From a virus, in the IMG/VR virus record IMGVR_UViG_3300022723_000245, positions 1-44,747 of that record: DNA of 44,747 bases, one strand, 5' to 3'. The stretch's first letter is position 1, and every line of letters starts with the position of its first letter. Below the pieces are notes generated by a model, which searched no databases, was not told the DNA's origin, and saw only the letters and a program-made list of their open reading frames with translations. Shown in pieces: positions 15,036 through 38,683 of this stretch. Position numbers and translations under genes: made by a program.

Positions 15036-15270
15036 ATTGCGCTCTCTTCTTATTGTTGACTTCTGTTACTTTAAGTACACGTTCACGCATTCTTGAGTGA
15101 CATTCATCGCAGAAATCCATGTCTAAAACATCTTCTATGTCTTTAGGCCGATCCTTATGATCGATTACTCTTTTCATGTTTATACTATAATATTCGATTT
15201 GATCGTCAGTTATTAATACTTCTTTACCGCATAAATCGCAATAAATTCCTTGGCTACTGGGGTGGAACAT
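15004..15270 (-). CDS. Small zinc-finger protein (88 aa)
   Basis: Two CxxC knuckles, CDLCGKE near residue 11 and CDECHSR near 54, should bind one zinc. The C-terminus is basic (NNKKRAQYGKRKSIRPN). Its start overlaps the last base of the polymerase C-terminal gene (TAATG), so translation is coupled to that gene. Function is unknown. Confidence 0.65.
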   Translation of the reverse strand: MFHPSSQGIYCDLCGKEVLITDDQIEYYSINMKRVIDHKDRPKDIEDVLDMDFCDECHSRMRERVLKVTEVNNKKRAQYGKRKSIRPN

Positions 15271-16490
15271 TAGAATGGTTCTTCAATCATAGGTAGTGAT
15301 AAAATGTGAGCGTTTCTAGATAGATTAAAGTTTTGGTACCGGTCACTCCAATCGCATTTAGTGCGGATACCATGCCCTTCTTTGATAATATCTTGATCTT
15401 GATTGTCCCATGAATCACCCCAAATTCTGATGGCTTGGGTTTCGACACCATCGTTAACAAACAAATTAACGAAGGGTGTGCCATTTTTAGTTGTACCCTT
15501 TGTGAATTTTTCAATCACAGCATGAATAGATCCTTGATGATCAGGGTCTTCCCTAATGTTGGAGAATTTAAATGTTGGATTATGTTTAAACAATCTTAAG
15601 GGCGATGTCCAATAAACTCCTAAGTATTCTTTTTCAAATCTTAGGAAGTCTTTATCGCTCCAATCACGGTAGTAATATTGATCTTCTTTATCTACTTTTC
15701 TATTTTCAGCCCATAGATTATTGAAGAATTCAATGAATTCGTCTCTGGTTGGCCTGTCGTGTTTATATCCTATTTTAGGCTTCCAGTTGGAGATTTTAAT
15801 GGGAATCTTTTTCTTTTTTGGGTATCGTTTCTTATACTCCTCAATTTGTCTAGCGCGTTCTTTATTTAGCTTGTCTTCTGGCCAATGCTTTTCCATATAT
15901 GCTTCATCATAAATCTGACGAATGCGTACATTTTCATCGTTTCTAGAAGCATATTTAAATTGATACCAGAACCATATATGCTTGGCTCTGTTTTTATGAA
16001 CATTCTCAAATGCTCCTAATTTAATCAGTCTTTCAATCGGCCCTTTTTTCTTGCCATAACGTTCGACAAAATCGTCAATATTGTCGCATTTTCCACCATC
16101 AACACTAAGAGATTCAGCCACAGATGGACCGATACCTTTAATCATATCTAGACTAGGGTAAACATTAAGATCATCATCTACGATTAACTTGCCATTTAAA
16201 TAACCTGTTCTGATAGGCTCAAAGACTACTCCTTCAGACTTGGCTACGCCAACATACTTGGCCCTCTTATCTTGGTGACAAAATGTAAGGATGCTGGCCC
16301 AAAACTCAGGTGGGAAATGAGCTTTGAGCCATAGTGAGCGATAAGCAATTACTCCATAGGCGTAAGCGTGACTATTAGCATGGATCGGTTGGCCTCGTTC
16401 CGCTATAGTCACATAATTGTGGTGTTTAGACTTCATTCCTAAGTTGTATGTCTGTTTTAATCCTAATGATTTAATTTTTGTTATTTTCAT
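15270..16490 (-). CDS. dnaE: DNA polymerase III alpha, C-terminal piece with N-terminal split-intein half
   Basis: A 406-aa protein. Residues 1-39 are a C-intein: MKITKIKSLGLKQTYNLGMK, then HHNYV (block F) and GQPIHAN (block G) with the terminal Asn. The penultimate residue is Ala, not His, as tolerated in cyanobacterial DnaE inteins (Ser there). Residue 40 is Ser, the +1 nucleophile. SHAYAYGVIAYRSLWLKAHF follows, a highly conserved DnaE segment, then a helix-hairpin-helix region (LDMIKGIGPSVAESL) and an OB-fold (HQGSIHAVIEKF to QAIRIWGDS). Trans-splicing with the N-intein at 17765-18076 would give FNK-SHAYAYG, the normal polymerase sequence. The first bases overlap the endonuclease gene 16471-17808 by 20. 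Confidence 0.92.
   Translation of the reverse strand: MKITKIKSLGLKQTYNLGMKSKHHNYVTIAERGQPIHANSHAYAYGVIAYRSLWLKAHFPPEFWASILTFCHQDKRAKYVGVAKSEGVVFEPIRTGYLNGKLIVDDDLNVYPSLDMIKGIGPSVAESLSVDGGKCDNIDDFVERYGKKKGPIERLIKLGAFENVHKNRAKHIWFWYQFKYASRNDENVRIRQIYDEAYMEKHWPEDKLNKERARQIEEYKKRYPKKKKIPIKISNWKPKIGYKHDRPTRDEFIEFFNNLWAENRKVDKEDQYYYRDWSDKDFLRFEKEYLGVYWTSPLRLFKHNPTFKFSNIREDPDHQGSIHAVIEKFTKGTTKNGTPFVNLFVNDGVETQAIRIWGDSWDNQDQDIIKEGHGIRTKCDWSDRYQNFNLSRNAHILSLPMIEEPF
16374..16490 (-). other. C-terminal half of split DnaE intein (39 aa)
   Basis: The codons from the ATG at 16490 to the Asn at 16374-16376. The next codon, AGT (16371-16373), is Ser +1 of the C-extein. The sequence aligns with the Npu DnaE C-intein along its whole length. 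Partner: 17765-18076. Confidence 0.9.
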
Positions 16491-17808
16491 TTAATATCCT
16501 CACAAATCGGTATTTCTCTTTGCCTTTTATTTTTCTAAAACCATGTTCAAATGCATAAACAGCTTCCTTTTTGCCCATTTTTACGGCCCTATTATAGAGA
16601 GTCTTTTTGTGCATAACATACCCATTTTTATCGATATACCAATAGTCGGGCCTAACAATTCTGTCCAATTTAAAATTGGACGCTCTATAAATGGTTCCGT
16701 TATGTCCGCATGTGCTGTCAGCATACGCTATTAATGCTCTGGCTCTAATTAGCTTAATAGCCTTTTTTATAAACCATGAAGCAAAATTTTTCTTTTGATA
16801 ACATGGATGTATGCAAAATCTTGAGATTTCGAGTACTTCATTATTGTTTAGTGATAATGTTTGGGCTATGTTTTGTCTTATTGGTCTCGACACAACAAAC
16901 AAGGCTACTAAATCATTTTCTAGATACGCACCAATGTATTTTGATCCTCTAGGAACTGTGTGCAAATAATGAAATTTAGATAGAAAACTAACAGCATCCT
17001 TGTAATTGCATTCTTTAGATTCAACTTCATCAAAATCAAATGCAATTTGTTTATGTTCGTTAATTCCCAGAGCAGACTTTAGCAATTCAATGATTTTCTT
17101 TTCAAATAAAAAATCGTATTCCCACAGTACCATGAAATCATAATCTTCTCTATGATATCTATCAATAAATGACTCTTTTGCTCTGTCATTTCTTTTTGAC
17201 TTTTCCAAGGAATGCCAATATTCTCCATGGCATTCTATTAGTAGATCCTTTTCCATATTACCTTGTCTTGGTATCAAACAGTCGAAAACATAAAAACCAA
17301 CCTTTGTTTCTTTTCCTTCTTTGTAGTATTTAATTCCTAGGCTATCGATTATTTGATATAAATGTTCTTGCAATCTTGAAATGCGTGGCATTCTTGCTCT
17401 AGCCAGCGCTTGCTTGTTCCTATATTCTTTGTCTTTGAATTTTTTTTTGATCGCTTCGGATACTTTTCTGTTTCTTTCTTTGGTTATCCCGCTTAGTGAA
17501 TGCTTTGATTTTTCTTCCTCACTAAGCGATTCCCAAAATATCTTAGATGATCTTGAGGCTAATTTTTTTCTTTCATTAGTGCTCCATGCCTTTTTCATGG
17601 ATTCTATATTTTTATTCTTATTTGAGCTTCTATAACATTTAGTGCATAAATATGAGTTGATATTGGCACTTTGCTTTTTGCAATTTCTAATATGCTCTTT
17701 TTTAATTATAGATTTTACGTTAGAACAACAGCTGCATTCTACTTCTACTTTGTTGTTGCTGCTAGATCCGTCTTTTATTATCATCATATTGAATGACGTT
17801 AAGCTCAT
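16471..17808 (-). CDS. Homing endonuclease (Vsr-like EDxHD type) with GNAT-like C-terminus
   Basis: A 445-aa protein. It has an N-terminal zinc finger (VEVECSCC and LCTKC), helical arrays of basic repeats (about 70-135), and a Vsr-like nuclease core YVFDCLIPRQGNMEKDLLIE, CHGEYWHSLEK and RYHREDYDFMVLWEYD. A C-terminal domain then reads EISRFCIHPCYQKKNFASWF and AYADSTCGHNGTIYRASNF, which resembles GNAT-fold acyltransferases, including Mom-like proteins. This nuclease core is the type first found in fractured, split-intein genes. The gene lies exactly between the two intein halves, overlapping the upstream piece by 47 bases and the downstream piece by 20. It probably drove insertion at the polymerase locus. 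Start could also be Met 8 or 9. Confidence 0.85.
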   Translation of the reverse strand: MSLTSFNMMIIKDGSSSNNKVEVECSCCSNVKSIIKKEHIRNCKKQSANINSYLCTKCYRSSNKNKNIESMKKAWSTNERKKLASRSSKIFWESLSEEEKSKHSLSGITKERNRKVSEAIKKKFKDKEYRNKQALARARMPRISRLQEHLYQIIDSLGIKYYKEGKETKVGFYVFDCLIPRQGNMEKDLLIECHGEYWHSLEKSKRNDRAKESFIDRYHREDYDFMVLWEYDFLFEKKIIELLKSALGINEHKQIAFDFDEVESKECNYKDAVSFLSKFHYLHTVPRGSKYIGAYLENDLVALFVVSRPIRQNIAQTLSLNNNEVLEISRFCIHPCYQKKNFASWFIKKAIKLIRARALIAYADSTCGHNGTIYRASNFKLDRIVRPDYWYIDKNGYVMHKKTLYNRAVKMGKKEAVYAFEHGFRKIKGKEKYRFVRILNENNKN

Positions 17809-19300
17809 GATTAATGATTTCCTCTACAGTGTGCATAACATTGTCATCACATAAAAATTTGTGTTTCATTGTTACATGTTGTTTTATTCCGTTATCGAAC
17901 TTAATTTCGAATACTTCTTGTTCGCCAGAGTCTATAAATTCTACAACATCATCAATAAAAAACTCTTGCCCGTCAAATGATATTAATTTGAGGTTTTTGT
18001 CATAGCTAGCCCACTCTTCGACTGTCTGTGTTTCCTTAGTTTCAGCATGTTCTAATAGAGTATCTTTGCTTAAACATTTGTTGAAACAATAGCGCCCAAA
18101 AGTAACCATTTTGTTCCACCACCCTTGGGCAGAGTGCGATTTGGCTCCTTCATATATGCCTTCATCGTTTCTTGGCATAGGGTCATCTAAAAAACCATTT
18201 TTTATCATTCCGCTAACGATTCTTGGGCCTAACTTAAGGACCTCTTCTTTTTTCTTTTTAGCGACTGATTTTCTGGCTTTCTCCGCTTCTGGCACGGTAA
18301 GGCCACCAAAAGTGGTCCAGAACTTAGTTAATTGTTCTTGGTACACGATAATACCATGTGTGTCTCCCAGCATTTTGGCGACACGAGGGTCTTCTTTCTT
18401 TTTCCATAATTGGTCAGGGTCGTCGCGTCTGGCAACATATTCTGGTATCATATCCATAGGGCCAGGGCGGGCCAAAGCAGTATAGGCAACTAGGTCATGG
18501 AAATTGCGCACGCCATTGGATAGCACACCTTTAGCAACATGAGTATCAAATTGGAATACGGCTTCCGTTCTTACTTCATCAGCCATTTGGATTGCTTCAG
18601 GATCATTAAACAATACAGGAACTTTTTCACCATTCGGTAATATTTGGTGACCAGCATAAGGCTCATCGCAGCTAGGGTCACATTCATCCCAATTGATTTT
18701 GATTCCTCGCGATTTCTCAATCAATTCTTCAGTGTACACATTATAAGCCATTGTTTTAAGGCCAAGAATATCGAACTTAACTAGCCCAAATGGGCTTAAC
18801 TGAGTGGCTGCCATTCCTTCAGTCCACTGACTGACATACTTCCCTTTGATATAGCTCATAGGAATAGTGTCTTGAAGGGGGACACTAGAAATAATGATAC
18901 CACCGGCATGTTGGCCTTGGGATTTTATTCGTCCTCTTAAGTCCAGAGCAAGTTCCACGATCTCTTCATTTTCAATGTAGTAATCTCTGAATTCTGAACA
19001 GGCAGAGCAGAGATCTTCTAGATCCATACTGTCATATTCGTCATCATTTAAAACTTTTGTTAGTTTAAGTACTTGTTGCATATCTCCTTCTAATACTCTG
19101 CAAGCGTCATTCAGTGCTTGTTTAAGCTTAAAAGTGTTCCAATTTCCAACTGTGCACACCTTATCAGAGCCATACGACTCAGATGCGTATCTTTTAATTT
19201 CATCACGAATATGCGGTAGGAAGTCTGTATCTATGTCCCAGCTAATCAGGGAAATCTGCTTGATACGGGGCGTTATGAGGTATTGGGTGATCGCCAGCTT
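17762..19300 (-). CDS. dnaE: DNA polymerase III alpha, catalytic middle piece ending in N-intein
   Basis: The open frame runs from just after a TAA (19301-19303). No ATG or TTG exists until GTG at 19159. The codons upstream of that GTG encode SWDIDTDFLPHIRDEIKRYA and ESYGSDK, including the DxDxDF with two catalytic aspartates, so a start at 19159 would give a dead enzyme. The third Asp is in LVKFDILGLKTM. Other DnaE landmarks are SQGQHAGGIIIS, ALARPGPMDMIPEYV and GIIVYQEQLTKF. The polymerase part ends FGRYCFNK and is followed by a 104-residue N-intein. How the first codons are translated is open: non-AUG start, stop readthrough, or ribosome bypass of the 19246-19348 hairpin. Confidence 0.85.
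   Translation of the reverse strand, partial: KLAITQYLITPRIKQISLISWDIDTDFLPHIRDEIKRYASESYGSDKVCTVGNWNTFKLKQALNDACRVLEGDMQQVLKLTKVLNDDEYDSMDLEDLCSACSEFRDYYIENEEIVELALDLRGRIKSQGQHAGGIIISSVPLQDTIPMSYIKGKYVSQWTEGMAATQLSPFGLVKFDILGLKTMAYNVYTEELIEKSRGIKINWDECDPSCDEPYAGHQILPNGEKVPVLFNDPEAIQMADEVRTEAVFQFDTHVAKGVLSNGVRNFHDLVAYTALARPGPMDMIPEYVARRDDPDQLWKKKEDPRVAKMLGDTHGIIVYQEQLTKFWTTFGGLTVPEAEKARKSVAKKKKEEVLKLGPRIVSGMIKNGFLDDPMPRNDEGIYEGAKSHSAQGWWNKMVTFGRYCFNKCLSKDTLLEHAETKETQTVEEWASYDKNLKLISFDGQEFFIDDVVEFIDSGEQEVFEIKFDNGIKQHVTMKHKFLCDDNVMHTVEEIINHELNVIQYDDNKRRI
17765..18076 (-). other. N-terminal half of split DnaE intein (104 aa)
   Basis: It starts with Cys1 (TGT, 18074-18076) as CLSKDTLLEH. DSGEQEVFEIKFDNG follows, then the block B motif VTMKHKF with its His, and it ends INHELNVIQYDDNKRRI. 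The order and wording match the Npu DnaE N-intein. The insertion point (CFNK/SHA) is three residues downstream of the cyanobacterial DnaE site. Confidence 0.92.
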
Positions 19301-19385
19301 TTAGCTGCACCCCCTCATAAGTGGCCTCATCATCAAGGATTTCCCTGACTAAGACCTCCTTTCTTGTTATTGACTTTATCTTCAT
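19242..19385 (-). CDS. Short frame preceding the polymerase catalytic piece (C-intein-like, uncertain)
   Basis: A 47-codon frame from ATG 19385, whose ATGA overlaps the stop of the upstream endonuclease. It begins MKIKSITRKEVLVREILDDE and contains ATYEGVQL, then HPIPHN followed by Ala. The start, the TYE segment and the final HN recall a C-intein, which would be expected at this place, but block F is poor and residue +1 is Ala. The frame differs from the polymerase frame and stops at 19242. It may be a decayed C-intein, or the 5' part of a frame joined to the polymerase by ribosomal bypass. Confidence 0.35.
   Translation of the reverse strand: MKIKSITRKEVLVREILDDEATYEGVQLKAGDHPIPHNAPYQADFPD
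19246..19348 (-). other. Four-tier 103-nt hairpin in the 5' region of the polymerase catalytic piece
   Basis: Read on the minus strand, nested stems pair perfectly: TCAGGGAAATC with GATTTCCCTGA, CTTGAT with ATCAAG, TTATGAGG with CCTCATAA, GGGTG with CACCC, and CAGCT with AGCTG around AAA. TTAG stands on both sides of the structure. A strong AAGGAGG lies just 5' of it. The UAA that closes the polymerase frame (19301-19303) is at the apical loop. It could be a bypass element, an inserted hairpin element or a translation-control structure. Confidence 0.75.
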
Positions 19386-20875
19386 GGTCTAATATTCAGT
19401 TCGTATTTGTAATGTCCACAGTCAAATACTGGGTAAAAGCCGTTTTTTATGCAATTCTGCATCTCAGTTAAGTCTTTGTCAAAATATGTCATATTGGATA
19501 GTTTATGCTTTTGCATGCTCTGACGATTAACAGTCGTGCGTGATTTTATATTATAGTAAAAATAATTCGGCTTTGTTATTTTTAGTAACTTAAACCCTGA
19601 TTTCTCATAGATGTTATTCCTATCGCTAAATCTTCTATCGCAGTAAGTTATTATATTGCTGTTATGATTCTTCAAATGATGTTTCAGCAGTCTACTGAAC
19701 CCGCCAACAACATTATATCCAGTTTTGGTTGCAAATCTGCTAATCTCAAACCAGTTTTGATTTCTGGTGAATGATAACATCATTAGTATCTCGGAATCAC
19801 TGGCTAAGCCATAGTGGGCATACGATGATTTAAATCCATGCATATGGCTACTATTATAGAACTCTTTGGCATCTTTTGATTCTACGCTTACTATTGACAA
19901 ATTTCTAGCGTATTCTTTTTGTGCTCTCATGCATCTTTGCAATAACATCGATTTTATTATCTCTTTTTTGTTTTCCCACTCATGATCCCATATCTGAATA
20001 AGCTTTATGTCGCGATTGTTAGCAACAGATGTCTTAAATTTATGTCTGTTCTTCTGATGGTATGTTGGGTTGTTATGACAGCTGTGCCAATATAATCCAT
20101 TGAACTCTATTCCTATTTTGAAATCTGTTATCAAGATGTCTATTTCTAGTCCGTCTAGTGATCTTCTGTCATTGATCTCAACATTTATACTGTTACTACT
20201 TAAAAAGTCGATAATCTCTTGTTGTCCTCGTGAGACAACTACCGAACATTTTGGACATCCATGACCTTGCATATGGTCATTAGCTATTTGATTAAATGTT
20301 CCATGCTTGGAACATGTAACAAGAATTTTAGATGATGATTTTGTGTATTCAGATTTGGAATAATTATACTTGCCATTATGAACATCACTAGACCTCGATT
20401 TGAAAAAATTATTGTGATATTTGGATTTTGCTATTACTATGGATTTTTGTGATATCTTAGTCTTATATTCATCAGAATTCATTATTGATGTCATTTTCTC
20501 TCTAAAATTGTCTTCAGACCATTTACTTGAGATTGCTGCTGACATCTTATCTCTATATTTCTCAGAACCCTTTACGTTACCTTGTTTTTCTCTGTATTCA
20601 TTAGTTTGCCATAATTTTAATGCGCCGGTTCTTTGTTTATCAATATATGAATTGCCAAATCTCTTAAGCATTTTGCTTTTATTAGACCATTCATTTTTAA
20701 GTCTCTCTGAGACTGCATAACTATCTATTGAACATTTTGCGCATAAATCATTTCCGGTTCTTTTTCTTTTTTTCTTATAACATACAAGCTTAATTGTTCT
20801 TATTGACTTGCACTTGTCACATTCTACTTCGACAGTATCATCGTTTTTAATTCCGGAGATGTCAGTTAGCAACAT
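19382..20875 (-). CDS. Homing endonuclease (Vsr-like) with zinc-finger repeat and C-terminal GNAT-like domain
   Basis: A 497-aa protein. The N-terminal VEVECDKC and LCAKC zinc finger matches that of the 16471 endonuclease. A basic helical region follows, then a DUF723-type finger (VTCSKHGTF, QIANDHMQGHGCPKC near residue 205), the nuclease core GLEIDILITDFKIGIEFNGL with YWHSC and LIQIWDHEW, and a C-terminal domain (WFEISRFATKTGYNVVGGF; SGFKLLKITKPNYFYYN). It is clearly paralogous to the 37210 endonuclease in its last 250 residues. It separates the intein-like fragment 20896-21288 from the polymerase catalytic piece, and so probably marks a second homing site near the DxDxDF codons. Its stop overlaps ATG 19385. 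Confidence 0.82.
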   Translation of the reverse strand: MLLTDISGIKNDDTVEVECDKCKSIRTIKLVCYKKKRKRTGNDLCAKCSIDSYAVSERLKNEWSNKSKMLKRFGNSYIDKQRTGALKLWQTNEYREKQGNVKGSEKYRDKMSAAISSKWSEDNFREKMTSIMNSDEYKTKISQKSIVIAKSKYHNNFFKSRSSDVHNGKYNYSKSEYTKSSSKILVTCSKHGTFNQIANDHMQGHGCPKCSVVVSRGQQEIIDFLSSNSINVEINDRRSLDGLEIDILITDFKIGIEFNGLYWHSCHNNPTYHQKNRHKFKTSVANNRDIKLIQIWDHEWENKKEIIKSMLLQRCMRAQKEYARNLSIVSVESKDAKEFYNSSHMHGFKSSYAHYGLASDSEILMMLSFTRNQNWFEISRFATKTGYNVVGGFSRLLKHHLKNHNSNIITYCDRRFSDRNNIYEKSGFKLLKITKPNYFYYNIKSRTTVNRQSMQKHKLSNMTYFDKDLTEMQNCIKNGFYPVFDCGHYKYELNIRP

Positions 20876-20895
20876 AAACTAATTTTGATTTAAAT

Positions 20896-21288
20896 CTATT
20901 CTATCTCATCATCTTCTAAAAGATCTTTTGCCTTAATATATCCCCTAGCCGTCTTAACCATAGTGTCATCTGATAAGTTTATGACCACTCCATTTTCTAG
21001 AATAATTTCAATTCCATAAATTTTAACTTCATCACCATTAATATACAGTTTTTTATGCCCTACTACAGGGTCTACATCTGTTATACCATATATGAATGGC
21101 AATACTAAGCCGTTATCATTATGGTCAAATTTTTTACCTTCGTTTATAAGTTCCATCCAGTATTCGTTAGCACCTTGTTTAATAATTTCTTTGTGCTCAT
21201 ATTTTAAGCGATCAATATATTCTCGCCCTAATTTAATTGCTCTCTTACAAGAATCTCTAACAATATCAGGCCAATTATCCCAAGTCAT
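20896..21288 (-). CDS. Polymerase-related fragment fused to an N-intein-like segment
   Basis: A 130-aa protein. Residues 1-75 (MTWDNWPDIVRDSCKRAIKL to YGITDVDPV) recall the DnaE stretch before the catalytic motif: RLKYEHKEIIKQG, then NGLVLPFIYGITDVDP, but without the GRGSxxGS loop. Residues about 90-130 (EIILENGVVINLSDDTMVKT, then ARGYIKAKDLLEDDEIE) match intein block B, very like the NrdJ-type split inteins. The block B His is Thr and no Cys1 or Ser1 with a block A is evident. It may be an unusual or inactive split-intein half. It starts 14 bp from the divergent 21303 gene and ends 20 bp before the endonuclease. Confidence 0.55.
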   Translation of the reverse strand: MTWDNWPDIVRDSCKRAIKLGREYIDRLKYEHKEIIKQGANEYWMELINEGKKFDHNDNGLVLPFIYGITDVDPVVGHKKLYINGDEVKIYGIEIILENGVVINLSDDTMVKTARGYIKAKDLLEDDEIE

Positions 21289-23041: not shown

Positions 23042-24250
23042 CTAGAGATTGAACTTCCAATTAAATTTATCTAAAGGCAAAACTGTGTTTTTGATTTTGT
23101 GTTTTCGGAATAAATTTCTAGCATAAGTGTTTCGGTAAGGCATTCCAAAAAACACTTCTCTAATGCTGCTCTGACAAATCAATTTGGCGCATTTGGGACA
23201 TGGCATTGTAGTGCAGAATAATACTGTTCCTTCTTTATTATCATTCTTAATTAATGCGTTTTCTTCCGCGTGTACACATCCACATTGACCTGGATATACA
23301 CTATCGCAATGGTTTTGCGCATTTCTTATCTGACCATTGTAACCTATAGATATAATATTTGATCTATCATTGTTGGTTATTATGCAACCAACTTTCGCTC
23401 TCATGCATGTTGACCTTTGAGAGATTGTGAAAGCCATCTTCATCATTGCTTCATCTATGGATGGCCGAGCGTGGGATAAGAATACTTCGTATTTTCTGGG
23501 CATAAACAAACTACGCACAGAATACAAATCATTAAGGATTTTAATGCCATCAATACCAGCTTTGTGAACTGAGTACAGTTTGTTTTTGTTTTTCTTGCGA
23601 TCTGTTATGTCATATATTTTGACTGTGTGGCCTATCGATGAATACATTAGTTTTAATTGATTAGCGAATTCTCTGGAGGCAGTAATCCCCAACGATATAT
23701 TTATGGGACGATTTCTACTGATATATCCATCACCATCAAACACACCACGTAAGAAATCTCTTATGAATTCTTTTGGTATGTCTTTAGAAATTTTTAGATT
23801 AAGACTTTTAGACGGCATAATTCCATATGAAGTAGCAATGTCATAAAGGATCTTACTATATATAGTGATGCGGCAGCAATTATCTTTACCAGTGTAAATT
23901 GGTTTATCTGTCCGGAAGAATTTATTGATATCCTCTAGTACAGATTTGTCTCTTTTATGCAACGAGATGTCAATATACTTCGATTTTCTATTGGTCGACA
24001 CATGTCCATCTGATGATAATAATCCGAGAATGTAGAATTTTTCACTGCAGTCAACATTCAATGAATCTTCATTTATATCATATATTCTAGGTGATCTGCT
24101 CCTACTAGCATTATTGTCTTTTAATATCTTATAGATCGTAGTCTTGCTTAGCCCGGTCTCATCTCGCAGTTCTTTTATCTTAAGGCCCTTGTTATATAAA
24201 TCTATAACCACTCTTGTGGGATCTCCTGCATTGCATTCTTGTCCATCCAT
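23042..24250 (-). CDS. LAGLIDADG homing endonuclease fused to dCMP deaminase
   Basis: A 402-aa single frame. Residues about 15-50 are a helix-turn-helix (LKIKELRDETGLSKTTIYKI). Residues about 65-255 are a two-motif LAGLIDADG nuclease (YILGLLSSDGHV near 73; FLRGVFDGDGYI near 165). Residues about 268-402 are a complete deoxycytidylate deaminase with SQRSTCMRAKVGCII, YNGQ, CGCVHAEENAL (zinc His and proton-shuttle Glu) and MPCPKCAKLI (zinc Cys pair). dCMP deaminase makes dUMP for thymidylate synthesis and is usually a separate gene in T4-like phages. No intein motifs separate the parts and no ribosome-binding site precedes the deaminase, so it appears to be a true fusion. The start overlaps the preceding gene by 49 bases. 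A GTG further in is possible. Confidence 0.85.
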   Translation of the reverse strand: MDGQECNAGDPTRVVIDLYNKGLKIKELRDETGLSKTTIYKILKDNNASRSRSPRIYDINEDSLNVDCSEKFYILGLLSSDGHVSTNRKSKYIDISLHKRDKSVLEDINKFFRTDKPIYTGKDNCCRITIYSKILYDIATSYGIMPSKSLNLKISKDIPKEFIRDFLRGVFDGDGYISRNRPINISLGITASREFANQLKLMYSSIGHTVKIYDITDRKKNKNKLYSVHKAGIDGIKILNDLYSVRSLFMPRKYEVFLSHARPSIDEAMMKMAFTISQRSTCMRAKVGCIITNNDRSNIISIGYNGQIRNAQNHCDSVYPGQCGCVHAEENALIKNDNKEGTVLFCTTMPCPKCAKLICQSSIREVFFGMPYRNTYARNLFRKHKIKNTVLPLDKFNWKFNL

Positions 24251-35711: not shown

Positions 35712-37220
35712 TTACATCTTCACTTTTAGCATGTAACCACCACGGCTTGGTGACAAAAATCTATCGAATGATAAGCCGAATTTTATTGGGTCCATGCTAG
35801 TAATGCCCAATAGAAAGCAAACTAATGAGCCGCCAGCTGATCCGCGTGCTGGCCCAGTTTGACAATTGAGCTTATGGCTGTGTTGTACTAAATCTTGCAT
35901 AATTAGAAAATATGATGCAAACCCTTTTTCTATAAATCTATTAAGTTCAATAGTGGTTTGTTCCAAGTAAGTGACCATTTTACCATCAACTTCATATTTA
36001 TTTTGGTTAGTGTGCAAGCAATGTCGTTTTAGGGCATTGTAAGTTCTGGCCTTTAAGATTCTGTCAGAATCATCAATTTCCGGCAATTTAGGCGAGGTAT
36101 CAGCGTTGAAAGCATTGCATTTGTTTGCTACTTCTAGTGATCGATCACAAGCTAGTTCGAATTTGTGCTCGTCAAGAGCCCTATCATATAGACAAGTATG
36201 GTAGGTCCCACGCAGTTCGCTCCTGGTTTTAAAGTAAAGTTCTGAACTGTAGTCTTTAATTCTTCTGATGGTTGTGTTTCTGCCAATTGCTATCATTGCG
36301 CGATAAAGTTTTTCATGTTGTCTTTTAATATGACGAACATCATTCGATACTACTGTTTGGAGTTTTATTCCATGCTCTTGTTCATATCTATTAATTAGGG
36401 TGGATTGAGTCATTAAGCGATCTAGGTCTGAACCCCATACGCTATCTTGGCAACGTAGCACCTGTTCAATGTAAAAATCCTCACCGAATTTGTTGTGGAA
36501 CCAATCTAGATAATCATAGGCGCACAAAGCGCCATACTCTGGATTTTCAATGCCACCAACATAGCCAAATTCTATGAACCGATCAAGTAAACTTCCAGTC
36601 ATTATGATGATATTGCCATTAGCATACCGTTCTAAAATTTCTCTAGTCACTTTTGGGACGTAATAATAGCCGTTTTTCCAAGATTCAGCGTTGATATTGA
36701 CTAAATCTTTATATCCTTGCTCGTTTTTGGCTAATATGGTGATTTGTGGAGTCCTAAAAGGTCTGCAGGCTAATAATAGTGCAGGATGATTTTTGGGATC
36801 ATCGTTTTCATTATCGATCATTTTGCGTCTAACTGTTTCGTAGTCGCTAAAATATACAGACATGCCTACGATATACTTTAGGCCAGTTTCTTTAGCGGCT
36901 ATGTAGCAGTCTGGCACACTGGACATATAGCCAGTTTCAGTAATAGCCAATCCAGACATATTATGGTTTATGGCTTCGTGAAATAAGTCTTCAGGATTAT
37001 CAACCCCGTTTAGGATGCTAAATTTACTGTGAACATTGAGATGGAAAAATTCGCCAACTCCAAAGTTCTGATCACATTCTTCTCTAGTTAAAGATAAAGA
37101 CCTTCTAGTGATTTGTCTTCTGTAATATTTAGATAGCGTTTTTTCTTTATAGGCTTGCTTAACGGATTTCTCATCAGATTGAATCCGATAATCACCTATG
37201 TTGTAGTCTTTAAGATTCAT
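35712..37220 (-). CDS. dnaE: DNA polymerase III alpha, N-terminal piece
   Basis: About 502 aa from the ATG at 37220 (MNLKDYNIGDYRI), which overlaps the upstream endonuclease stop. An in-frame ATG at 37265 would overlap it by 56 bases. A PHP domain begins FFHLNVHSKFSILNGV; metal ligands are altered (HLNVH for HLHVH, ITETGY for ITDHGN), so PHP metal activity is unlikely. RFIEKGFASYFLIMQDLV, GPARGSAGGSLVCFLLGITS and MDPIKFGLSFDRFLSPSRGG form the palm start with the GRGSxxGS nucleotide loop. The frame ends GGYMLKVKM, a few residues before the catalytic DxDxDF, which is encoded 16 kb away. No intein is visible at this end. Proofreading comes from the separate exonuclease at 38684. Confidence 0.88.
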   Translation of the reverse strand: MNLKDYNIGDYRIQSDEKSVKQAYKEKTLSKYYRRQITRRSLSLTREECDQNFGVGEFFHLNVHSKFSILNGVDNPEDLFHEAINHNMSGLAITETGYMSSVPDCYIAAKETGLKYIVGMSVYFSDYETVRRKMIDNENDDPKNHPALLLACRPFRTPQITILAKNEQGYKDLVNINAESWKNGYYYVPKVTREILERYANGNIIIMTGSLLDRFIEFGYVGGIENPEYGALCAYDYLDWFHNKFGEDFYIEQVLRCQDSVWGSDLDRLMTQSTLINRYEQEHGIKLQTVVSNDVRHIKRQHEKLYRAMIAIGRNTTIRRIKDYSSELYFKTRSELRGTYHTCLYDRALDEHKFELACDRSLEVANKCNAFNADTSPKLPEIDDSDRILKARTYNALKRHCLHTNQNKYEVDGKMVTYLEQTTIELNRFIEKGFASYFLIMQDLVQHSHKLNCQTGPARGSAGGSLVCFLLGITSMDPIKFGLSFDRFLSPSRGGYMLKVKM

Positions 37221-38655
37221 AAACATATTTGTAATTGCCAGAGTTCCAAAATCTTCTATATCCATTGTTAAACATGTTCTGATATTCAGTCAATTCTGGG
37301 TCAAAATCATCTAACAGATTATGTAGCCGATGCTTTTGACACGACATTCTAGACAAAACCACATTTCTTTTTATATAAAAATAGTTAGGTTTAGTTAATC
37401 CTTTGCATTTAAAGCCTAATTTGCTATATACTTTTCCATTTGATATATCAGCGTCAGCAAATGTCAATACTTTAGCTTTCCCAACAAGTCTTATAAATTC
37501 TTTAAACATTTTTGATGCACCGCCAACAACAGTAACGCCCATAATAGTAGCAAATCGGGCTATTTCGTAATCGTATTCATTTTTGGGTGATTTAACGAAC
37601 CCCATAGAACTAACCAGTTTGTTGTCATGTGTTAAACCTATTCTAATGCTGGCTGATACGCATCCGTGAAGATGGTTTTTATCCATAAATTCTTTATACT
37701 CTTTAAAATTTAGTTGTACGATAGAACATTTTCTGGCATATATTTTATTGTTATGCTTTAAATGATTATTGATAATTCCTAAATAGATTTCTTTTCTTTG
37801 TTTCCAAACATGTTCGTTTATGTGTACTAATCTTATACCTAAGTTTTCACATGTTATAGTCTTGTTCTGGTGTTTGAATATCTGTTTTTTACTTTCTTTG
37901 TGGTTGTAAGAATGCCAAAACCATCCATTGAATTCAATTGCCAATTTTTTAGTTGGAATATAAAAGTCTAATTCGTATGGTGTTATAATATTCCTATCAC
38001 AATAGTTATAGTTTATTCCATGATTGTCGAACAGACCAATCAATTCAGACTCATATTGATTGGAATAACATTTTGGACATCCGGATCCAATAACATGATC
38101 GCCTGCTATCTGTTCGAATTCTCCATGCTCTGGGCATATTATTATTATCTTGTTTTTATATCCAGAATAATTAACCAATGAATAATCATATTTATGATCA
38201 TGTTTTTCATTGCATCTGCTTATAAAATCATTTTGGTCTACTAATAAATAACTGGACCTATTGTCATTATAACATTTTGGACACCCGGCTTTTCTATATA
38301 AATGTTGGTCTATTCTTTGTCTAAATATTTCATGCTTTGGGCATATTATTTCCACTTTTTGTAAAGTGTTTTTTATGTTATCTTTAACGTATCTATACTT
38401 ATTGTTGTGAATCTTATTGGCTTTTGATACGAATTGAACGAAACTCATCCTTTGCTTATTTGACATTTTTTCATAAAAACATTTTCTACATCCCTTTTTG
38501 GAATATATGTGCCCGCCAGCTTTCTGTAAAAACAGACCATGTTTAGGACAAATTACACCAATTTTGCTTTTTAAATCTACATTGCTTGGTAGATTATCAT
38601 ATTTGTAATGACCATGAACAGAATTAGCCTTTTTGATATATTCTTCTCTATCCAT
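37210..38655 (-). CDS. Homing endonuclease with three DUF723-type fingers, Vsr-like core and GNAT-like C-terminus
   Basis: About 481 aa from ATG 38655; a GTG at 38682 gives nine more residues. Three repeated zinc fingers of the form ICPKHGLF...GCRKC, ICPKHEIF...GCPKC and ICPEHGEF...GCPKC lie at about residues 35-190. The nuclease core is ITPYELDFYIPTKKLAIEFN with GWFWHSYNHKE and LVHINEHVW. The C-terminus, EIARFATIMGVTVVGGASKM with KLGFKCKGLTKPNYFYIK, is paralogous to the 19382 endonuclease. The gene lies between the proofreading exonuclease and the polymerase N piece, which suggests these two were once adjacent or fused and that this is another homing site. Confidence 0.83.
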   Translation of the reverse strand: MDREEYIKKANSVHGHYKYDNLPSNVDLKSKIGVICPKHGLFLQKAGGHIYSKKGCRKCFYEKMSNKQRMSFVQFVSKANKIHNNKYRYVKDNIKNTLQKVEIICPKHEIFRQRIDQHLYRKAGCPKCYNDNRSSYLLVDQNDFISRCNEKHDHKYDYSLVNYSGYKNKIIIICPEHGEFEQIAGDHVIGSGCPKCYSNQYESELIGLFDNHGINYNYCDRNIITPYELDFYIPTKKLAIEFNGWFWHSYNHKESKKQIFKHQNKTITCENLGIRLVHINEHVWKQRKEIYLGIINNHLKHNNKIYARKCSIVQLNFKEYKEFMDKNHLHGCVSASIRIGLTHDNKLVSSMGFVKSPKNEYDYEIARFATIMGVTVVGGASKMFKEFIRLVGKAKVLTFADADISNGKVYSKLGFKCKGLTKPNYFYIKRNVVLSRMSCQKHRLHNLLDDFDPELTEYQNMFNNGYRRFWNSGNYKYVYES

Positions 38656-38683
38656 GTCATATCTTTGAATCCATAAGCACACA

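Follow-up and report, generated by a model that had tools for sequence, protein, structure and literature searches.

A phage dnaE gene apparently invaded at two sites: a split intein and a candidate hairpin-aided ribosome hop over a stop codon in the catalytic motif

The virus record IMGVR_UViG_3300022723_000245 of IMG/VR, analysed here over its whole stretch of 44,747 nucleotides (the window), carries a DnaE polymerase gene, dnaE-B, that by its sequence appears to have been invaded at two sites: site 1, between GITDVDPV and IPHN...PDIDTDF, and site 2, at FNK|SHA. We consider it probable, for the locus as a whole, that site 2 holds a functional split intein and that site 1 is a decayed intein at which an upstream hairpin would help the ribosome hop over a stop codon placed within the catalytic motif. 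The parts lie on the minus strand in the order piece A (37265-35712) and, far downstream, B1 (21288-20896), the endonuclease-like gene HE2 (20875-19382), a short open reading frame (ORF) with the catalytic region, the endonuclease gene HE3 (17808-16471) and the C-terminal piece (16490-15270). Related viral contigs and loci compared with the window are given L-numbers (L002, L008, L041 and so on).

Unfractured relatives read without interruption across site 1 (NPIERSIPHNIVYQPDYPDIDTDF in L008, DPVEAGIKPNIQYHPDYPDIDSDF in L007). In the window, alignment to the N-terminus of unfractured dnaE-B places the start of gene B in B1 (21061-21288), whose last residues, GITDVDPVV, run into a tail of 54 amino acids, the N-module (20899-21060). 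HE2 (19382-20875) follows, its stop overlapping the ATG of the C-module ORF (19242-19385), a frame of 47 codons, MKIKSIT...HPIPHNAPYQADFPD (ending ADFPD), that is closed by TAG and has five homologues of 46-47 codons. Beyond the TAG the polymerase resumes in another frame, and the catalytic PDIDTDF is cut both by an in-frame stop (19242-19244) and by a change of frame, which an earlier sequence-only reading of this DNA did not mention.

This disruption is recurrent. We fetched 45 loci with an independent part of the protein, some of them near-duplicates; five besides the window are fractured at site 1, one lies too near a contig end, and 39 are open. A stop and a disruption fall at the same codon in all six fractured loci (five contigs and the window) and in none of the 39 unfractured ones, where the ORF is open for at least 190 amino acids upstream. 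The form differs between lineages: GTT T GAC (+1) in L030; ATA TA GAT (+2 each) in L035, L036 and L041; ATA TGA ATT GAT (+6, same frame) in L011; and GAT TAGCTGG GAC (+10) in the window, where the putative hop site (19235-19247) comprises the take-off codon GAT (19247-19245), the gap TAGCTGG (19244-19238) and the landing codon GAC (19237-19235). Each of the six take-off codons is directly followed by a stop, and in each locus PD[I/V]DxD would be restored (PDIDTDF in the window) if the P-site tRNA slipped forward onto the codon that immediately precedes the resumed frame. All six implied slips are forward, as expected of a structure that re-forms behind a paused ribosome and draws the mRNA out of its exit side. 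Take-off and landing codons are identical in the three related loci (ATA/ATA) and synonymous in GAT/GAC. On the tree the fractured state takes four changes, at least three of them forced, with intact sisters in L040 (of L030) and L055/L065 (of L011), which suggests that the fracture was gained independently at least three times. An alternative genetic code or a TAG suppressor tRNA was considered and rejected: TAG is a genuine stop, used in 17 of the 37 window genes counted, no suppressor is present among the ten tRNA genes of the window, and the frame would still not be restored.

The start of the C-module ORF pairs antisense with the codons preceding the stop, in a hairpin of 113-117 nucleotides (nt) in all six loci, and the segment that pairs best, in antisense, with the stop region is found every time at +31 to +41 nt of that ORF. 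The stretch from +29 to the stop (19242-19357 in the window) folds as one long hairpin; its 3' arm is coding sequence, IPH...PD(I), and its 5' arm is antisense to the 3' arm, largely codon for codon. In the window, 15 unbroken base pairs join the 5' arm (TTAGTCAGGGAAATC, 19338-19352) to its complement at the stop codon, the DFPD codons plus TAG (GATTTCCCTGATTAG, 19242-19256). Stability z-scores are -7.15 for the window, -9.4 for L011, -4.3 for L030, -7.3 for L035, -5.3 for L036 and -8.0 for L041. Of about 3,570 segments of 116 nt in the record, only one folds more stably than the hairpin; those of comparable stability are found at a distance from the dnaE block, in the contig's left arm (0-5.4 kb). 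Among the three sequences that align without gaps, 92.7% of 41 pairs are paired, with 7 double changes, a value reached in 1 of 500 shuffles; slid controls gave 31-41% paired and 0-2 double changes. Across all six hairpins, double changes occur in 20 columns. The C-module ORF is also coding, its peptide being conserved and the synonymous (pS) and nonsynonymous (pN) differences between L035 and L041 over codons 1-31 amounting to 0.67-0.77 and 0-0.08. The fractured loci have no downstream stimulatory structure (z about -0.2 to +1.9), and no Rfam motif or intron was found at the site at gathering thresholds, the matches in the window being to tRNAs only. A hairpin on the N-module side is clear in the window and L011 only and is not general.

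These features suggest a mechanism in which the ribosome would pause when its P-site tRNA is paired with the final codon of the C-module ORF (GAT in the window), and the 5' part of that ORF, antisense to the codons just read, would re-pair behind it. Re-pairing would pull the mRNA forward, and the tRNA would slip by +1, +2, +6 or, in the window, +10 nt, landing on a codon that matches or nearly matches. Translation would then resume with PDI-D-x-D intact, across a predicted window junction ...QADFPDIDTDFLP.... A hop across the whole hairpin was rejected, as the exon codons are conserved and no matching take-off codon is seen ahead of the hairpin. Searches of part of the literature turned up no previous description of recoding in a phage DnaE.

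The modules that flank the break at site 1 are, in our reading, what remains of an intein. The sequence-only reading had pointed to a second endonuclease and a second intein-like fragment upstream, and both are present; the fragment is not a second splicing intein, since it has no Cys1, block-B His or intein-terminal Asn and its apparent C-terminal 'HN' is extein. The N-module, with six homologues, resembles an intein N-half that has lost block A: in all six loci it begins downstream of that block, without Cys, Ser, Thr or Ala at position 1, and the block-B TxxH is missing. The 'HN' of the C-module (IPHN) belongs to the extein in unfractured L008 ('RSIPHNIVYQPDYPDIDTDF'), and the +1 residue would be Ala. 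Several comparisons indicate that the N-module tail is intein-derived. Over 46 amino acids the L041 homologue shares 43% identity with an internal segment of a contiguous intein of L119. One part of its AlphaFold model (predicted local distance difference test 86.5) matches DnaE and the other part RecA and Npu DnaE inteins, 38 residues superposing on the RecA intein at 0.9 A; in Foldseek the E-values are weak (about 0.03-1), the probabilities reach 0.99, and the top match, for the L041 homologue of B1, is the M. tuberculosis DNA polymerase. Site 1 would then be a decayed split intein that has lost splicing. What its halves most likely provide is a clamp, probably just holding the chains together; in general terms this fits other phage enzymes split by endonucleases, which function once their chains have reassembled. 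In L035 (4907-5830) and L036 (609-1511) the gene between the modules runs antisense and comes from a different family (DUF7487 plus a TnsA-like nuclease), from which it appears that different endonucleases have occupied the same cassette. No cultured phage carrying the cassette was found in the searches made.

How else might the stop be accommodated? It could simply terminate translation, with re-initiation at an AUN codon just before DxD and a polymerase made, after site 1, of three non-covalent chains. The stop and restart frames do overlap tightly, AUA or AUU is often the codon preceding DxD, and L030 has an ATG in the right place. That is, however, the only one of the six loci with a canonical start that retains both catalytic aspartates, and it is the lack of such a start in the other five that makes re-initiation less likely. 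A chain break within the catalytic strand is also structurally implausible, and re-initiation needs neither an antisense hairpin nor exact restoration of the motif; we judge it unlikely. Alternatively, the hairpin may be a palindrome that acts on DNA, in homing or in protection from an endonuclease, the frame change being mainly a target-site scar and translation being rescued by ordinary, inefficient slippage. Homing-type genes are found within the cassettes of the window, L035 and L036, and for T4 it has been proposed that the bypass insert once protected the gene from a nuclease (PMC5009743). The hairpin is nevertheless kept in the three cassettes that have no endonuclease gene (L041, L011 and L030), and a target scar would not call for the stop that comes after each take-off codon. 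We regard a role in DNA as quite unlikely.

Since the window is a single metagenomic contig whose polymerase would lose its catalytic motif without recoding, an unreal frameshift from misassembly, or a dead polymerase in a recent pseudogene, also had to be weighed. It is very improbable: the same position is disrupted in six contigs from different datasets, the long downstream ORFs are intact despite deep divergence, and the hairpin covaries. We give equally little credence to an extension of the sequence-only reading by which both breaks are ordinary trans-splicing inteins. Intein-like halves do flank an endonuclease gene at both sites, but the splicing residues missing at site 1 and the extein origin of IPHN speak against it, and the stop would survive splicing. 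Some observations weigh against a hairpin-aided hop. Take-off and landing codons match imperfectly in ATA/ATT and GTT/TTT. The 20 columns with double changes over all six hairpins come from structures each predicted separately, which biases the count toward pairing. Similarity in sequence between the N-module and inteins is modest (hhalign probability 17%). All six loci are uncultured contigs represented by one assembly each, with no close second copy of the window found, and both recoding and splicing are predicted from sequence.

At site 2 a trans-splicing split intein with an intervening endonuclease gene is well supported by motif content, relatives and recurrence of the insertion site. 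The sequence-only reading had recognized this arrangement. Its N-intein (17765-18076, CLSKDT...KRRI) follows ...RYCFNK and starts with Cys1; its C-intein (16374-16490, MKITKIK...PIHAN) leads into SHAYAYG with Ser at +1; and the endonuclease gene between them (16471-17808) overlaps the N-intein ORF by 47 nt and the C-terminal piece by 20 nt. Two details needed correction. The intein lies four residues (C-F-N-K), not three, downstream of the cyanobacterial DnaE split-intein site, which we take to be EY|CFNKSH. The 'catalytic piece' does end in CFNK plus an N-intein, but its ORF (17762-19159) starts only after the catalytic PDIDTDF. The catalytic extein (IDTDF... to ...RYCFNK, 18077-19234) matches Pfam DNA_pol3_finger at 1.5e-30 and is 51% identical to L002, and the C-terminal extein (SHAYAYG..., 15270-16373) matches phrog_405 at 1.5e-28 and HHH_6 at 4e-8.

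The N-intein has VTMKHKF as well as Cys1, and the T and H of TxxH are invariant across five homologues; the C-intein ends in PIHAN|S, with the final Asn and Ser+1 kept in L039 and L067. A profile built from the five N-intein homologues gave E-values of 5e-12 to solved DnaE inteins and 3e-11 to Npu DnaE. All five match the NCBIfam N-intein model, the window member weakly. The same split occurs with an endonuclease gene in L067 and with a decayed one in L039, and L103 is split too; these three contigs and the profile match place the observation beyond chance. Contiguous inteins occupy site 2 in at least seven loci: L008 (also L009 and L010), L065, L088, L098, L106, L107 and L108/109. L002, whose dnaE-B has no intein, carries a free-standing HE3 orthologue immediately behind that gene. 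In the window the two chains would trans-splice, with HE3 as the homing gene in the gap.

The endonucleases merit separate description. HE3 combines a putatively Vsr-like nuclease region with a Mom-like C-terminal domain. Its nuclease family matches are to MTES_1575 at 3.5e-5, below cutoff, and to phrog_3339, homing endonuclease, at 4e-17; the TIGR vsr match is just 0.03, on HE1. The C-terminal domain of HE3 (16474-17808) matches the Mom DNA-modification family (PF25680, 2.2e-26; phrog_1384, 1e-32), and HE1 and HE2 align across the same region. HE2 matches phrog_559 at 1.9e-86 and phrog_3339, homing endonuclease, at 1.5e-79. HE1 (37210-38682), a third endonuclease of the same type, lies between a DnaQ-like exonuclease gene and piece A, whose start it overlaps. 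Within the contiguous site-2 inteins of L008 (7436-8259) and L065 (6529-7349), a LAGLIDADG endonuclease gene runs out of frame with the intein ORF, which stays open throughout. The endonucleases are 53.5% identical and the inteins 25.9%, and none of 20,000 synonymous-codon shuffles kept the intein frame open in either locus. By these sequence comparisons it appears to be an endonuclease overprinted inside an intein; in L008 a Shine-Dalgarno-like GGAGG precedes its ATG.

Piece A (35712-37265) carries the PHP domain and the start of the palm, ends in FDRFLSPSRGGYMLKVKM, and matches Pfam PHP at 9e-28 and DNA_pol3_alpha at 7e-26. The break between A and B is ancestral and no new damage, since A and B are separate genes also in L002, L007, L008 and other relatives, unfractured ones included. 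The PHP-domain piece A of L011 contains a contiguous mini-intein (1822-2220; VTND|CLELD...IISHN|CHYAS). Elsewhere in the window, a dCMP deaminase that appears complete carries a LAGLIDADG/helix-turn-helix endonuclease as an in-frame N-terminal fusion (23042-24250), and a perfect 20-bp inverted repeat with a 14-nt loop (1052-1105) lies beside the start of an HNH-type ORF.

To our knowledge, programmed bypassing in phages has so far rested essentially on T4 gene 60. If the hairpin-aided hop is real, the hop lengths, which differ among four lineages at a single homologous site, would form a natural comparative series, and the model of a structure re-forming behind the ribosome would become directly testable through covariation-guided mutants. 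It would also show how a replicative polymerase can tolerate selfish genes that interrupt the coding of its active site. For protein ligation, site 2 would be a useful addition, as a split-intein hot spot in DnaE.

Among known systems, the split intein at site 2 is a further member of an existing class. Fractured genes with split inteins were reportedly described by Dassa et al. 2009. As in such genes, the halves are carried by two ORFs and are separated by an endonuclease gene, here putatively Vsr-like; what differs here is the Mom-like domain on the nuclease, the DnaE site four residues from the cyanobacterial one and a second, non-splicing fracture in the same gene. The cyanobacterial split DnaE inteins (Npu, Ssp) share the host gene, nearly the same site and profile E-values of 5e-12 to 3e-11, whereas Ser rather than Cys at +1, an endonuclease gene and a phage setting distinguish the window. 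A match to Brevibacillus phage Sundance was set aside as an ordinary contiguous polymerase. For site 1, the +1 programmed frameshift site of bacterial release factor 2 (RF2) is CUU UGA C, and L030 has GUU UGA C with +1 restoration; unlike in RF2, no upstream Shine-Dalgarno-like element is seen at L030, and a hairpin lies upstream instead. The nrdA gene of Aeromonas phage Aeh1 is likewise an essential gene split by an endonuclease insertion (mobE), its chains still forming a working enzyme (PMC2988022), but no recoding stop is described for it.

The closest parallel is T4 gene 39-mobA-gene 60 (PMC5009743, PMC3014915, PMC11194080), in which an endonuclease gene also breaks another gene. There, the ribosome pauses at a codon with UAG next to it, and its subsequent sliding is described as guided by stem-loops that form behind it (PMC11194080). 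In both systems the downstream ORF (46 codons with an MKFVKI start in T4, 46-47 here) ends at the take-off codon directly before the stop (GGA then TAG in T4), upstream RNA structure aids forward sliding in T4 and is proposed to do so here, and the gap is missing in unfractured relatives. The gap in T4 is 50 nt, in contrast to 1-10 nt here, the gene is different, and the long hairpin antisense to the coding strand is found here; upstream pairing in T4 gene 60 is marginal (22 of 1000 shuffles). The gp39 tail and gp60 leader have no significant similarity to the N-module and C-module (12.5% of shuffles were as good, with no hidden Markov model match), and we file T4 39/60 as an analogue, not a homologue, of the site-1 cassette. 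The stop, the hop site and the antisense hairpin would make this fracture a new variation on T4-type recoding. Whether it defines a class of mobile fracture cassettes, gained at least three times in phage DnaE, with lineage-tuned antisense hairpins that drive the ribosome over a stop in the catalytic motif, is a wider proposal on which we are evenly divided; if it does, T4 gene 60 would be one instance of a wider recoding strategy.

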